From a virus, in the IMG/VR virus record IMGVR_UViG_3300031766_000043, positions 1-29,548 of that record: DNA of 29,548 bases; one strand, written 5' to 3'. A program made the translations under genes and the position numbers. Under the pieces are notes generated by a model that saw only the letters and a program-made list of their open reading frames with translations, was not told where the DNA came from and did no database searches. Shown piece by piece: positions 724 to 6,304 of the stretch (positions within the stretch are counted from its first letter, which is position 1; the number at the start of each line of letters is the position of its first letter).

Positions 724-3408
724 TTAGTCTACGGCGTCTGCTGTCGCTTTTGTATGTGTAATAATTTTATCTAGTTTTGAAGACATTTTCACTAACGCTG
801 TATTTATATTGTTTGCAGTCTCTTCGCTCACTCCTGATCCGCCCATCTTTTTAAGTAAATCAGCTGATGCTACGCCTGATCCGCCAAATAATCCTTTATT
901 ATCTTCTGCTAACGCTTTATTCATGTCTTCTAAGGACCTTGCTATTTCTTGCATATTAACATTATACTTGGAAAGCTCTGATATGTCAAGTCCTTTTTGT
1001 ATTGCATTTACATTTTCACTAAATCTTTCTAATTTATCAATTCTTTCAAATGCTCCTGCAACTCTTTCCATCCCGCCGCCGATACCGGCCATTCTTTCTA
1101 GTAATTTTGCACTTTCAGTTGTTAACCCTAGATCTTTTGCTAAATCTTTTTTCTCTGCTTCTTCTAGTTTTTTAGCTTCAGCTTCTGCAGCAATTTCTTG
1201 TGGACTTGAACCAAGTAAACCAAATGTTAGTCCATTCATTATGCTACTTCCAGCATTACCTAGACTTTCGCCAAATCCTGCATCTTCATCTGCATTAAAT
1301 CCGCCAAAGCCGTCATATAATCCCATTGCACCAGCGGCAACAAGACCAACACCTGGAATAAATTTCATTCCGCGAGCCGCGCCTTTACCAAAACTTAATA
1401 AAGGATTCTTTTTGACAGGTTGGAATTGTCCGCCTATTTTTTTGCCTGTTTTAGGATCAATTGCACCTGCAGGTGCTCTAGTAACAGTAGGACTTGCTCC
1501 GGGTGTTTTTAAACGTGAAAATAGTGAAGCTGCGCCTAGTGCCATAGCAGTCTTAATTTTGCCGCCTGCAAACATCAAACCAATGCCACCTACCATCGCA
1601 CCTATCACTAATGGATTTTGGAATAATGACGTAACCCCTTCTTTAAAAACAACACCTATTCCTTTCATTATATCTTCACCTATCTTTACAAACATTGGTG
1701 CTAGTGTTGATTGGTAAAATCCTTCAAATTCTTTGCCATTTTCATCAACTCCGCCCATAAAAAATTCAGATATGCTTTTTGAAATATCTTTAAATACACC
1801 TGTCACCGCTTTGCTAGGATCTTCTTTAAAATCTATTTTAAATTGGTTTATGTATGTACTTAGGCCTTTTAGTGCGTTTTGAAACTTAGTATTAGTACCT
1901 TCTTCGCCTACAAATGAACTAAAGGATGCTGTTATATCCTTAATTACCGGGGAAAGCAAATCTACAATAGGATTAATAAAGTTGTCTACAATTGCTAGTC
2001 TTGCGTTTCCAAGAGCTTCTATAAATGTTCCCATAGAATCAAGTTCGCCGCCTTCTTCTGGCTTAATCTTACCTGCTGCATAATCTGCTAAAAATTCATC
2101 TTTTGCAAATATAAGACCTTCGCCCGATTCTGTAAAATATTTTGATATTAGATCAACTTGACCTGCAAATAATGCTGATATTTCACTAGGAATACCTTCA
2201 CCGCCTGCGGCTGCTAATTTTAAAATTGCATCTAGTTCGCCTGCAGCTGCTACTTGTGCTTCTAGATAGTTGGCCATTCTATCTGCTTGTCCTGATTCAA
2301 ACTGTTCAAGTGTAGTGCTTTTATCTAATGCTTTAGATAACATAGCACTTACTAATGAAGCATTTTCTGATTGAGTTGCTGTAAACAATTGAAGTTCTCT
2401 AGTTACTGGAGGCATTCCTAAGAATTCTGCTTTTAGAGCATCAACAGCAACTTTGCCGCCTGTAGCTTGTGCTTCAGCCATTGCAGCATTTAATTTTTCT
2501 CTTTCTTTCTTATCTAGTTTTGCTAATTCCATTTGGAATGCAAAGTCCATTTGAGCTTGTGCAATTTTATCTTGTTGTGTTTTTACGTCTTGGCCTGTTA
2601 ATTTTGAAAGTGTTAACATATTCTTTGTTAAACTTGCAGCTGCTTCTGCATTTTGTGCTTTACTAAGAATTTCTGTCCTTGAACCTGCTCTATTTAAGTA
2701 TGCATTTCTAGACATTGTTTCGTTAAGGTCTTCCATTGTGAAGCCCATTGCAAGAAATTCTTCTCTTGTATCTTTTCCTAGTGAATCAGTCATTCCTGCA
2801 ATTTGTCTGGCGCCGCGTGTTACGTTACCACCAAATGCAGCTAAATTTTCAGTATTTTGTGCTACCATTGCACTGAATGTTTCTAGAGGTAGTCTTGCTT
2901 CAGCGGCTGTTGATCTAAGATCTGCTAAACTATAACCAAAATCAGCACCTGCAAGAGCCATTGATTGGAATGATGCATAACTTCTATCAAGTATTCCTGT
3001 AAACATTGTTAACGTTGAGCCAACTACAGGCACATGTTTAGCAAAATCTGATAAACTGTCGCCGCCGGATATTAACTCTTCAGTAAGTCCTTTTAGGCCG
3101 CCAATAGCAGCACCAATGCTTGCTGTTGCAAGTTTTAATAATCCGCCGCCCATTAAGTTCAAATACTTTGTATTGTTTTTAACGGCTGTAGTATTATCTT
3201 TAACAGCTTCTCTATGCTTAGTTGATACTTTAACACCGTTCTGTTGGGCTTTGTTGTATGCTTGTTGTGTTTTAGCACCTTGTGACTTAGGATCGTTACC
3301 CGAAGTCTTGGCCATTTTTTCCATAGCCGCAACAAGTCGCACCAGTGTTACTTCACTAGCGACACCGTTCTCACCGCCTATATTTTCAATTTTAATTTCG
3401 TCAGCCAC
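724..3408 (-). CDS. 29: Tail tape measure protein (gp29-like)
   Basis: This 894-residue protein is Ala/Gly/Lys-rich and largely helical, with hydrophobic glycine-rich segments near residues 86-110, 600-640 and 690-710, as in tape measure proteins. Tape measures set tail length, fill the tail tube lumen and are ejected at infection. At about 0.15 nm per residue it predicts a tail of roughly 130 nm, longer than T4 (590 residues, about 92 nm). The start is GTG at 3406-3408 because an in-frame TAA lies directly before it; no strong ribosome site is visible. In T4, gene 29 lies inside the baseplate cluster between genes 27 and 48. Here it precedes the portal gene and diverges from the gp26-like frameshift pair. 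Assignment rests on composition, length and position, not on a clear sequence motif. Confidence 0.78.
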   Translation of the reverse strand: MADEIKIENIGGENGVASEVTLVRLVAAMEKMAKTSGNDPKSQGAKTQQAYNKAQQNGVKVSTKHREAVKDNTTAVKNNTKYLNLMGGGLLKLATASIGAAIGGLKGLTEELISGGDSLSDFAKHVPVVGSTLTMFTGILDRSYASFQSMALAGADFGYSLADLRSTAAEARLPLETFSAMVAQNTENLAAFGGNVTRGARQIAGMTDSLGKDTREEFLAMGFTMEDLNETMSRNAYLNRAGSRTEILSKAQNAEAAASLTKNMLTLSKLTGQDVKTQQDKIAQAQMDFAFQMELAKLDKKEREKLNAAMAEAQATGGKVAVDALKAEFLGMPPVTRELQLFTATQSENASLVSAMLSKALDKSTTLEQFESGQADRMANYLEAQVAAAGELDAILKLAAAGGEGIPSEISALFAGQVDLISKYFTESGEGLIFAKDEFLADYAAGKIKPEEGGELDSMGTFIEALGNARLAIVDNFINPIVDLLSPVIKDITASFSSFVGEEGTNTKFQNALKGLSTYINQFKIDFKEDPSKAVTGVFKDISKSISEFFMGGVDENGKEFEGFYQSTLAPMFVKIGEDIMKGIGVVFKEGVTSLFQNPLVIGAMVGGIGLMFAGGKIKTAMALGAASLFSRLKTPGASPTVTRAPAGAIDPKTGKKIGGQFQPVKKNPLLSFGKGAARGMKFIPGVGLVAAGAMGLYDGFGGFNADEDAGFGESLGNAGSSIMNGLTFGLLGSSPQEIAAEAEAKKLEEAEKKDLAKDLGLTTESAKLLERMAGIGGGMERVAGAFERIDKLERFSENVNAIQKGLDISELSKYNVNMQEIARSLEDMNKALAEDNKGLFGGSGVASADLLKKMGGSGVSEETANNINTALVKMSSKLDKIITHTKATADAVD

Positions 3409-3443: not shown

Positions 3444-3488
3444 AAAATGGTATATACATTTATAATAGTATTTAGCCAGGAGGAATAT

Positions 3489-4343
3489 ATGGAAAACAAA
3501 AACACAAATCCGTTACAGAAATATTTTAGACAACCTAAGATATATTTGTCGTTACCAAGTAACGGGCAATATTACCCTAAAGGAAGTTTGGAAGTATCTG
3601 AAACAGGTGAGTATCCAGTATTTCCTATGACGGCTAGGGACGAAATAATGATCAAAACACCAGATGCTTTATTGAACGGTCAAGCTACAGTTGATGTAAT
3701 TCAAAGTTGTATACCGGCAATTAAAGACGCATTTAATATGCCTTCAATGGATCTTGATGCATGCTTAATTGCTATTCGTATAGCAACATATGGTGAAAAG
3801 ATGGAAGTTAGTATTAAAGTACCAGTTTCTGGTGAAGATAAAGACTTTGATCTAGATCTAAGAGTAATGTTAGATCAGTTTTCAAATGTAAACTACGAAC
3901 ACGAATTTAACATGGGCGAATTAACTGTTCATTTAAAGCCGTTAACATACAGACAGTTTACTGAAACTAGTACAGCAACGTTTAACGAACAAAGAATATA
4001 CAATGCACTTAATAACGATCAAATATCTGAAAGTGATAAACTACAAACGTTCACTGATAGTTTTAAAAAATTAACAGACCTTACTTTAGATACACTCGAG
4101 CATTCAATTCATTCAATTAGAATTGGTGAAGATGTTGTTAGTGATAGAGGTCATATCAAAGAGTTTATTGCTAATTCAGATAAACAATTATTTTCTAGTG
4201 TTACCGATCATATCGAAAAGCAAAGAGAAAAATTTACAATTAAGCCACTAGTAATAGATGCTACTCCGGAAGAAATAGAAGCAGGTGTGCCAGCAACTTA
4301 TACAGTTCCTGTAACATTTGATCAATCAAGTTTTTTCGTATAA
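3489..4343 (+). CDS. 26: Baseplate hub/assembly protein gp26-like (T4_baseplate family)
   Basis: The frame gives 284 residues from ATG 3489, chosen because AGGAGGAA at 3478-3485 is well spaced before it; an upstream in-frame ATG lacks such a site. The N-terminal segment YLSLPSNGQYYP (residues 19-30) is a hallmark of the T4 gp26-like baseplate family, whose T4 member has 208 residues. gp26 was classically assigned to the baseplate hub and is needed for its assembly. The gene ends on an in-phase T_TTT_TTC heptamer six bases before its TAA, and the -1 frame is open beyond. I therefore infer that a minority of ribosomes make a 359-residue extended form. Together with the adjacent tape measure gene, this suggests an assembly chaperone role like lambda G/GT or P2 E/E'. 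Confidence 0.8.
   Translation: MENKNTNPLQKYFRQPKIYLSLPSNGQYYPKGSLEVSETGEYPVFPMTARDEIMIKTPDALLNGQATVDVIQSCIPAIKDAFNMPSMDLDACLIAIRIATYGEKMEVSIKVPVSGEDKDFDLDLRVMLDQFSNVNYEHEFNMGELTVHLKPLTYRQFTETSTATFNEQRIYNALNNDQISESDKLQTFTDSFKKLTDLTLDTLEHSIHSIRIGEDVVSDRGHIKEFIANSDKQLFSSVTDHIEKQREKFTIKPLVIDATPEEIEAGVPATYTVPVTFDQSSFFV
4331..4337 (+). promoter_or_regulatory. Candidate -1 programmed ribosomal frameshift site (T_TTT_TTC)
   Basis: In the gp26 frame the codons read AGT TTT TTC GTA TAA, so the heptamer T_TTT_TTC sits in exactly the X_XXY_YYZ phase needed for tandem -1 slippage, two codons before the stop. The -1 frame runs open to 4567. Possible downstream stimulators are a short CTTA/TAAG hairpin at 4348-4359 and a six-pair CTTCAC/GTGAAG stem (4373-4378 with 4403-4408). 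Both are modest. P2-type phages use a similar T_TTT_TTG site in their tail chaperone gene pair. Confidence 0.7.
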
Positions 4344-4567
4344 GGATCTTAGCACTAAGCGTATCAGAAATACTTCACGAAGTTGGGGTCCTAGAAAAAG
4401 AAGTGAAGCAAATGCGTTACAATCTTTTTAAACTTGCATGGCATATGCGTGGATCACTTACTATGAATGAAACGTTTGAGCTTCCACCGGAAGACCGTGA
4501 TATTATTTCTGATATAATTAAAGAAAATCTAGAGACTACTAAAAAGTCCGGCTTACCTTATTTTTAA
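4337..4567 (+). CDS. Frameshift extension of gp26-like protein (76 codons, -1 frame)
   Basis: After slippage at 4331-4337 the -1 frame encodes 76 residues ending in a TAA at 4565-4567. An internal ATG at 4412 would begin a 51-residue protein starting MRYNLFKLAWHMRGSLTMNE. It has no strong ribosome site before it, so fusion to gp26 explains its expression better than independent initiation. The segment upstream of the ATG (codons 4349-4411) also reads as a plausible amphipathic helix. The core YNLFKLAWHMRGSLTM followed by a polar helix and a short aromatic end resembles small proteins I recall beside gp26 in marine T4-like phages. I do not know its function; it may be the T-like arm that binds the tape measure protein. 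Its stop overlaps the convergent gene's stop by four bases. Confidence 0.65.
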   Translation, partial: RIRILALSVSEILHEVGVLEKEVKQMRYNLFKLAWHMRGSLTMNETFELPPEDRDIISDIIKENLETTKKSGLPYF

Positions 4568-5307
4568 ACAGTAGGTTTCTTAGCTGGAATTTTAATACTT
4601 TTTTCAAGTTGTTGAATTAATCTTCTTTTCTCTTTTGCATTGAGTTGAAGTGCAGCATCCTTAGTCTTTACATAACCACTAGACCCAGCTGGAACTTTTT
4701 TAGCAACAGCTTTCTTAGGAGCAGGTGCAGGACTAGCAACTGGTCCTTTTACACCTTGCTGTGTATTCATTGCTTCTTTTGCGGCTTGCATAAATGCATT
4801 ATCCATAACTTGCTTAGTTAGTGGACCTTTAGGAACAGCACCAATTTTCTTAACACGCTTAGATTTTAAAAATGCAACTAAAGATGGACCTGTTGCGTTT
4901 TTTATATCTAGTCCTTGTGTTCCAAGGTACTGTCTAAATTCATTATATAAGGTATTTGCTGTAGCACTAAGATCTGCTTTGCCTGCTAAATTGCCTGCTT
5001 TGCCCTTCATGCCAATTGCTCCAAGTGCTTTAGCACCTACGGCCTGTCCAGCTTTTTTTAACATACCTACAGGAGCTTCAGTTGCTAAACTTTCACGTGG
5101 TGGATTATATTCCCAATTGTATGATCCTTGGCCTATATACGAGCCTCTTGTATAACCTGCCATTTCCATAGCATCATCTGAAGGAATGCCTTTTTCTTTA
5201 GCCCAGTGATATATGTAATAAGATCTTTGACTGGCACTTACACCTGCAAATCTTTTTACTACATCAGGATCAGCTTTTGCTTCTGTTAGAATATCATTTA
5301 TTTTCAT
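4564..5307 (-). CDS. Unrecognised protein with a capsid-targeting-like N-terminus
   Basis: This 247-residue protein is not one I recognise. It starts at ATG 5305-5307 (MKINDILTEAKADPD). That opening resembles the T4 internal-protein capsid-targeting sequence MKTYQEFIAEA in length, charge and the final (L/I)xE|A, the consensus cut by T4 prohead protease gp21; here the cut would be LTE|A after residue 9. The rest is basic: a tyrosine-rich segment (residues 20-68), an Ala/Gly/Lys-rich stretch (about 80-112), a possible small folded domain (115-185), and a Lys/Ala/Pro tail. A basic, processed protein would suit packaging with DNA in the head. It has a late-type promoter about 30 bases upstream and is convergent with the gp26 pair. 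The head-protein idea is inference; gp21 is not in the window. Confidence 0.75.
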   Translation of the reverse strand: MKINDILTEAKADPDVVKRFAGVSASQRSYYIYHWAKEKGIPSDDAMEMAGYTRGSYIGQGSYNWEYNPPRESLATEAPVGMLKKAGQAVGAKALGAIGMKGKAGNLAGKADLSATANTLYNEFRQYLGTQGLDIKNATGPSLVAFLKSKRVKKIGAVPKGPLTKQVMDNAFMQAAKEAMNTQQGVKGPVASPAPAPKKAVAKKVPAGSSGYVKTKDAALQLNAKEKRRLIQQLEKSIKIPAKKPTV

Positions 5308-5854: not shown

Positions 5855-6304
5855 TTATGTGTTGGGTTGTTTTGCCTTGATGTGATGTTCTAGCAATGCC
5901 TGTTTGAGTTTTTCTGATCCGCCTACTCTAACATTAATGATACCGTTATAGTAATCATCTGTTTCAAGTACACGCCTATCAAATTGTTCTCTTGCCTCTA
6001 TGTAGGACATTTCGCCCCTACCTTTACATAGGTATAATATTTCTCTTGTGAAGTGTTTTTCGCCTAGTGACGCTACGTCTGCGTTTAGCCTGTCTGAACT
6101 ACCATAGTATGTTTTCCAGTCGCTTTCTTTGTAGCCTCTACGTTTATTTTTTCTGCCTTTGAGTGGTGGTTTTGTGGTCTTAAATTTTGCTAACTTTTTG
6201 CCTACGTATTTTTGACCAGTCTTTTTGTTCGTTATTAGATAAACGAAGCCTTCGTACTCGTCAGGTATTTCTTTAATTTTTTTGCCTTTGTACGTCCACT
6301 CCAT
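5855..6304 (-). CDS. GIY-YIG-like putative endonuclease
   Basis: This 149-residue protein has GFVYLITN (residues 19-26) and KYVGKK (32-37), which correspond to the GIY and YIG strands of GIY-YIG nucleases. These are followed by a basic loop (38-60), SDWKTYYGSS (61-70) and a helix with acidic residues (EAREQFDRRV, 103-112). Similar stand-alone proteins of about 150 residues occur in many large phages. Whether they cleave DNA, act as homing enzymes or repair DNA is not settled. It is the last gene of the minus-strand early cluster, 34 bases after the small basic protein gene, with the structured gene-free region just beyond its stop. The start ATG at 6302-6304 is the only sensible one. There is no sign that it interrupts another gene, so a free-standing gene is more likely than an intron-encoded one. 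Confidence 0.78.
   Translation of the reverse strand: MEWTYKGKKIKEIPDEYEGFVYLITNKKTGQKYVGKKLAKFKTTKPPLKGRKNKRRGYKESDWKTYYGSSDRLNADVASLGEKHFTREILYLCKGRGEMSYIEAREQFDRRVLETDDYYNGIINVRVGGSEKLKQALLEHHIKAKQPNT

Follow-up and report, generated by a model that had tools for sequence, protein, structure and literature searches.

Lambda and P2 make their tail assembly chaperones by −1 frameshifting, as gpG/gpGT and E/E+E′, respectively. Vladimirov et al. 2022 reportedly argues in its title for a mechanism other than frameshifting. Within the T4 group, T4 gp26 and gp51 were tabulated as hub assembly chaperones in 2010 (PMC3004832); cyanophage gp51 reaches only about 20% of the length of T4 gp51, and a remark of 2010 described cyanophage and marine vibriophage gp51 as being without the first ~200 residues (PMC3037559). 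PRFect, citing Vladimirov et al., describes some T4-like phages as having both a short gene and a longer fused one, and PMC12846349 refers to the same study for −1 signals of the poly-T kind in the chaperone genes of T4-like phages. Given the T4 listing and these citing papers, the tail-chaperone reading of gp26 is not new, and a preceding sequence-only reading of the present DNA, which knew of no such description for gp26, was probably wrong on this point. Here, we analyse the gp26 locus of a marine phage with a distant relationship to T4, IMG/VR virus record IMGVR_UViG_3300031766_000043 (positions 1 to 29,548; ‘the window’ denotes this whole stretch of 29,548 nucleotides). We consider it very probable that this gp26 is a tail assembly chaperone made in a short and a frameshifted long form, with T4 gp51 being the long form encoded by a separate gene. 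The extent of frameshifting in jumbo and marine relatives, and the RNA hairpin described below, may be new.

The window encodes the two products through the following elements.

3478–3483, plus strand: Shine-Dalgarno sequence AGGAGG of gp26, read from the sequence, 5 nt ahead of the ATG at 3489.
3489–4343, plus strand: gp26, putative short chaperone form (TAC-N), 284 amino acids (aa); assigned from Pfam PF12322, PHROG 150, an AlphaFold2 (AF2) model and Foldseek.
4331–4337, plus strand: slippery heptamer T_TTT_TTC, in phase; read from the sequence and found in the same phase in relatives.
4341–4343, plus strand: 0-frame stop TAA, end of the short form, read from the sequence.
4337–4567, plus strand: −1 frame extension of 76 codons following FF, plus TAA, predicted to form the C-terminus of the long form (TAC-NC); assigned from substitution rates, homologues and AF2.

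Beginning at ATG 3489, gp26 ends in the 0 frame as AGT(4329) TTT(4332) TTC(4335) GTA TAA, which places an in-phase X_XXY_YYZ heptamer two codons ahead of its stop. No stop interrupts the −1 frame from ahead of the slip site until TAA 4565–4567, and slippage would yield a product of 283 + 76 = 359 aa; the coordinates, frames and product length given in the sequence-only reading were all confirmed. The protein scores 42.5 bits against Pfam T4_baseplate PF12322 (curated cutoff 24.5), making it a member of that family, and matches the PHROG 150 baseplate hub group (3.6e-13). As a bare 7-mer, TTTTTTC occurs 11 times in the window against about 15 expected, so the word alone is uninformative; what is non-random about the heptamer is its position, phase and conservation.

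An alignment of the junction over relatives, as proposed at the outset, bore this out. An in-phase heptamer followed by an open −1 frame is present at 97/97 readable junctions of the window's group, which unites marine phages with jumbo phages of the RaK2 type (the 97 include a few duplicates of one another, and one more contig stops short of the site). A separate scan found it in 80/80 cyanophage-type loci, with extensions of 60–67 codons where the contig is long enough. Among 27 named reference phages, 24 carry both the heptamer and the open −1 frame: Atu_ph07, Phosso, PA5oct, RaK2, HTVC008M, P-SSM5, S-SSM2, Syn19, S-PM2, DLP6, phiN3, AS-zj, S13, PG216, KVP40, XaC1, CBB, 121Q, SCTP-2, Vibrio 2.275.O, XacN1, Munch, BF and Xanthomonas X1. 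The heptamer is absent from the other three, namely T4, Magnus (Ackermannviridae) and Vibrio phage K362. The earlier premise that the T4 group lacks such frameshifts holds for T4 itself but not for most relatives tested. The case named beforehand as refuting, gp26 plus the small protein without a heptamer, does occur, though only in a minority (Magnus and K362), while other relatives keep the heptamer. Magnus (locus L118, 3289–3462) and K362 (locus L117, 3193–3396) retain a related −1 frame open reading frame (ORF) despite the loss of the heptamer, and K362 has a stop-start overlap, TAATG, which suggests a switch to reinitiation.

The conservation exceeds what codon usage predicts. The heptamer is found in 66/66 non-redundant genes, whereas the codon usage of the individual genes would lead one to expect it in about 29, a figure that carries no correction for shared ancestry and, as the 66 were chosen as site carriers, is to be weighed beside the three exceptions. 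Its leading T is kept over nine different preceding codons in these genes, genomes of 50–55% GC included. Other Phe-Phe pairs in the same gp26 genes are written TTT TTY in only 14/30 cases, and only two other in-phase copies of the heptamer occur in 18,102 gp26 codons.

The −1 frame itself bears the marks of a coding sequence. An open −1 run of at least 58 codons follows only 0.4% of random points inside gp26 genes, and each of the 91 completely sequenced loci offers a stop-free extension in this frame (78 codons counting FF), with some seven stops in each of the other two. The ratio of nonsynonymous to synonymous substitution rates (dN/dS) in the −1 frame is 0.41 for codons 4–24, ahead of any start in the window, and 0.10 thereafter, versus values above 1 in the other frames; purifying selection thus acts on the frame from the slip site itself onwards. 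Synonymous change is lowered right after the site (proportion of synonymous differences, 0.36 versus 0.64). The 0-frame stop stands at the same place in 86/91 loci and three codons further on in 5/91 (L008, at 4853–4864, L015, L060, L061 and L084, where the first stop after the slip site is gone and a substitute follows three codons later), implying that its exact position is not critical. Homologues of the extension are found in Atu_ph07 and Phosso. Its AF2 model is a helical hairpin (predicted local distance difference test, pLDDT, 88) for which a structure search returned no confident viral match. In the records of AS-zj (locus L116, 3248–3411) and S13 (L129), the extension is unannotated, which could pass for an absence of gp51. 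In the window, its stop overlaps the 3′ end of a convergent 247-aa ORF (4564–5307) by four bases (4564–4567).

Alternatively, the extension might be an independent translation product, arising through termination-reinitiation or internal initiation, the heptamer merely reflecting a conserved Phe-Phe C-terminus. Database records list it as a gp51 gene of its own, in some relatives an ATG overlaps the stop or follows closely after it (extension residue 4 or 6), and K362 and Magnus keep the −1 ORF although the heptamer is missing. However, the first usable −1 starts in the window, GTG 4403 and ATG 4412, lie 24 and 27 codons in, and among relatives the first possible starts are scattered over residues 4–39; the 75-codon extension of PA5oct contains no ATG, GTG or TTG at all. 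Residues ahead of any start are conserved and selected, FFR is invariant in the 91 loci, and the heptamer exceeds codon-usage expectation behind many different preceding codons. The early cyanophage ATG, where present, lies inside the arm of the hairpin described next. Scattered starts, the startless extension of PA5oct and selection ahead of the starts together mean that independent initiation cannot be the general route, and we regard this explanation as improbable.

Downstream of the slip site, the RNA of the window can fold into a hairpin with the following parts.

4338–4342, plus strand: spacer of 5 nt between slip site and hairpin.
4343–4353, plus strand: 5′ arm of the hairpin, AGGATCTTAGC; minimum free energy −13.5 kcal/mol, dinucleotide-shuffle z −2.07.
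4382–4392, plus strand: 3′ arm of the hairpin, GTTGGGGTCCT; 11 bp stem, 28-nt loop.

In 66 non-redundant genes, the stretch of 66 nt following the site is more stably folded than its codon-preserving shuffles (mean z −2.41), whereas eight control stretches gave −0.04 to −0.57. The cyanophage group has a hairpin of unrelated sequence at the same spacing (z −2.50, n = 76, versus −0.35 for controls). The structure begins 5–6 nt 3′ of the slip site, within the 5–9 nt spacing of stimulators. In the window's group, the 5′ arm can pair with either of two 3′ arms, and both registers show covariation, with counts of paired cells and two-sided changes exceeding those of all 500 shuffles, counts that are inflated by relatedness. 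These mutually exclusive stems of the 5′ arm (window 4343–4392) could tune frameshift efficiency. The codon-preserving shuffle test detected no significant hairpin in RaK2, Munch or PG216, an upstream Shine-Dalgarno-like stimulator is absent in 60/66 genes, and an Rfam search returned no match. The hairpin may be a stimulatory element, new in the present analysis.

Phase and hairpin also bear on transcriptional slippage, in which a U inserted at the T6 run in some mRNAs would produce the same fusion. The homopolymeric run exists and the product would be identical; yet the run holds only six T and is closed by C in 64/66 non-redundant loci though TTT is usually the preferred Phe codon (this C could also be fixed by the Arg codon in the −1 frame), and strict codon phase with a hairpin five bases 3′ is a sign of ribosomal slippage. 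This explanation appears less probable still. That a sequencing artefact or an indel split one gene in two has a negligible chance and is refuted by the same two-frame layout in well over 150 independent contigs and finished phage genomes.

The predicted structure of gp26 hints at a relation to known chaperones. Its AF2 model (pLDDT 83) matches T4-like gp26s in Foldseek and, more weakly, the siphophage tail chaperones eiAU gp15 and K1H, with a probability of 0.98–0.99. The eiAU ORF, which sits between the major tail protein and tape measure genes, shares an overlap with its partner where a frameshift is predicted. The gp26 model also matches, with a probability of 1.00 in BFVD, uncharacterised proteins of ~490–550 residues from Ralstonia RSF1, RP12, Erwinia Special G, Aeromonas PS1 and Klebsiella Eowyn; judging from these models, they may be unrecognised tail chaperones of their jumbo phages.

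The relation to gp51 emerged from the cyanophages. T4 gp51 is homologous to virtual cyanophage fusions: the hhalign alignment crosses the junction and spans 236 columns (for one target, probability 96.7 and E 3e-10), and the profile of the cyanophage extension alone matched the C-terminus of gp51 (E about 9e-5, against a limited set of targets). By this alignment, the product that relatives obtain through frameshifting would have a gene of its own in T4, in agreement with the 2010 remark on the missing ~200 residues, and if cyanophage gp51 is the frameshift-encoded C-terminus, its shortness relative to T4 gp51 has a simple reading. The jumbo-type extension is too divergent to give such a match; position, phase and the homology of gp26 assign it to this system. 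Searching the source record, only a 29.5-kb fragment, turned up no second gp26-family gene that might be a T4-like copy of gp51.

Next to the locus lies one further gene of possible relevance.

724–3408, minus strand: divergently transcribed neighbour of 894 aa, candidate tape measure protein by its position between portal and gp26, as in RaK2 and PA5oct.

In HTVC008M, and probably in KVP40, where an unnamed large gene is downstream, tail tube and tape measure genes flank the chaperone locus. In the window, the 894-aa neighbour is no more than a candidate tape measure gene and occupies the other strand. By blastp, its product resembles RaK2 ORF088 weakly (E about 0.001), hhalign against T4 gp29 was negative, and the authors of Atu_ph07 assign the tape measure to a different gene, gp701. 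A search for plasmids came back empty. Elsewhere in the window, 5855–6304 (minus strand) encodes a SegE-like GIY-YIG homing endonuclease (Pfam SegE_GIY-YIG, 1.8e-35) adjoining gp46/gp47; PHROG 447, which it matches, is labelled NAD synthetase and looks misannotated.

Frameshifting at this site and a chaperone role of gp26, be it as homologue or analogue as the sequence-only reading had it, are strongly supported by phase conservation, −1 coding selection, the RNA hairpin and, more tentatively, the predicted fold match to known chaperones. Several results weigh on the other side. The siphophage chaperone matches have weak Foldseek E-values (0.014 for eiAU gp15 and 0.055 for K1H), and neither sequence nor fold searches of gp26 against the PDB returned a match. 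A profile search of the jumbo-type extension, the window's type, against T4 gp51 was not significant, and the link runs via the cyanophage type. The window's own hairpin is only moderate against codon-preserving shuffles (z −1.39, p about 0.08). Moreover, the 894-aa neighbour has no phage match below 1e-5, leaving its identity as tape measure, asserted beforehand, unconfirmed.

We infer slippage, its efficiency and chaperone function as follows. Most ribosomes would stop at 4341, giving the short form of 284 aa. A minority would be delayed by the hairpin (4343–4392) with U_UUU_UUC in the P and A sites, where both tRNA-Phe could slip one base back, re-pair with UUU_UUU and read 76 more codons into the 359-aa long form. 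On the model of lambda gpG/gpGT, the gp26 portion would serve as a coat for the tape measure protein, and the helical extension carried by the minor long form would bring in subunits of the tail tube. In T4, the site would have been lost and the long form encoded separately as gp51. We lean towards the view that gp26 frameshifting with a two-register stimulatory hairpin is ancestral in T4-related phages and that the T4 branch swapped in a separate long-form gene, which, if true, would explain both the truncated-looking cyanophage gp51 and T4 as an apparent exception among long-tailed phages.

The data indicate that T4 is the odd one out even in its own kinship: the site persists in cyanophages, a Pelagibacter phage, KVP40, phages of Aeromonas and Cronobacter, and jumbo phages of the RaK2 type. 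For annotators, this reading offers a rule for joining two coding sequences, and slip site and hairpin together form a compact two-part signal. Should Vladimirov et al. 2022 already cover slip sites in these groups, the hairpin, the sample size and the jumbo-phage cases would still be new.

Compared with lambda gpG/gpGT and P2 E/E+E′, the locus shares the poly-T site of P2 but differs in having no detectable sequence homology, an extension of 76 codons and a conserved downstream hairpin; moreover, the jumbo-type locus and the candidate tape measure gene next to it occupy opposite strands. The chaperone locus of Vandenendeviridae and Andersonviridae (phage Adele; PMC12846349) likewise has, in the passages covered, a conserved poly-T −1 site and an uninterrupted −1 frame, interpreted as TAC-N/TAC-NC, whereas its motif is given as GTTTTT, the phage group is another and those passages do not mention a downstream hairpin. 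The likeness to T4 lies in the homology of gp26 (PF12322) and in the virtual cyanophage long form aligning over the length of gp51, although T4 is without the slippery heptamer and its long form is a separate, divergent gene. The Kyanoviridae differ in their extension, which is about 60–67 codons long, has another sequence, frequently contains an ATG at six residues in, and is on the same strand as the downstream genes; they share the in-phase TTTTTTC and the hairpin spacing, and their short ‘gp51’ corresponds to the −1 frame extension.
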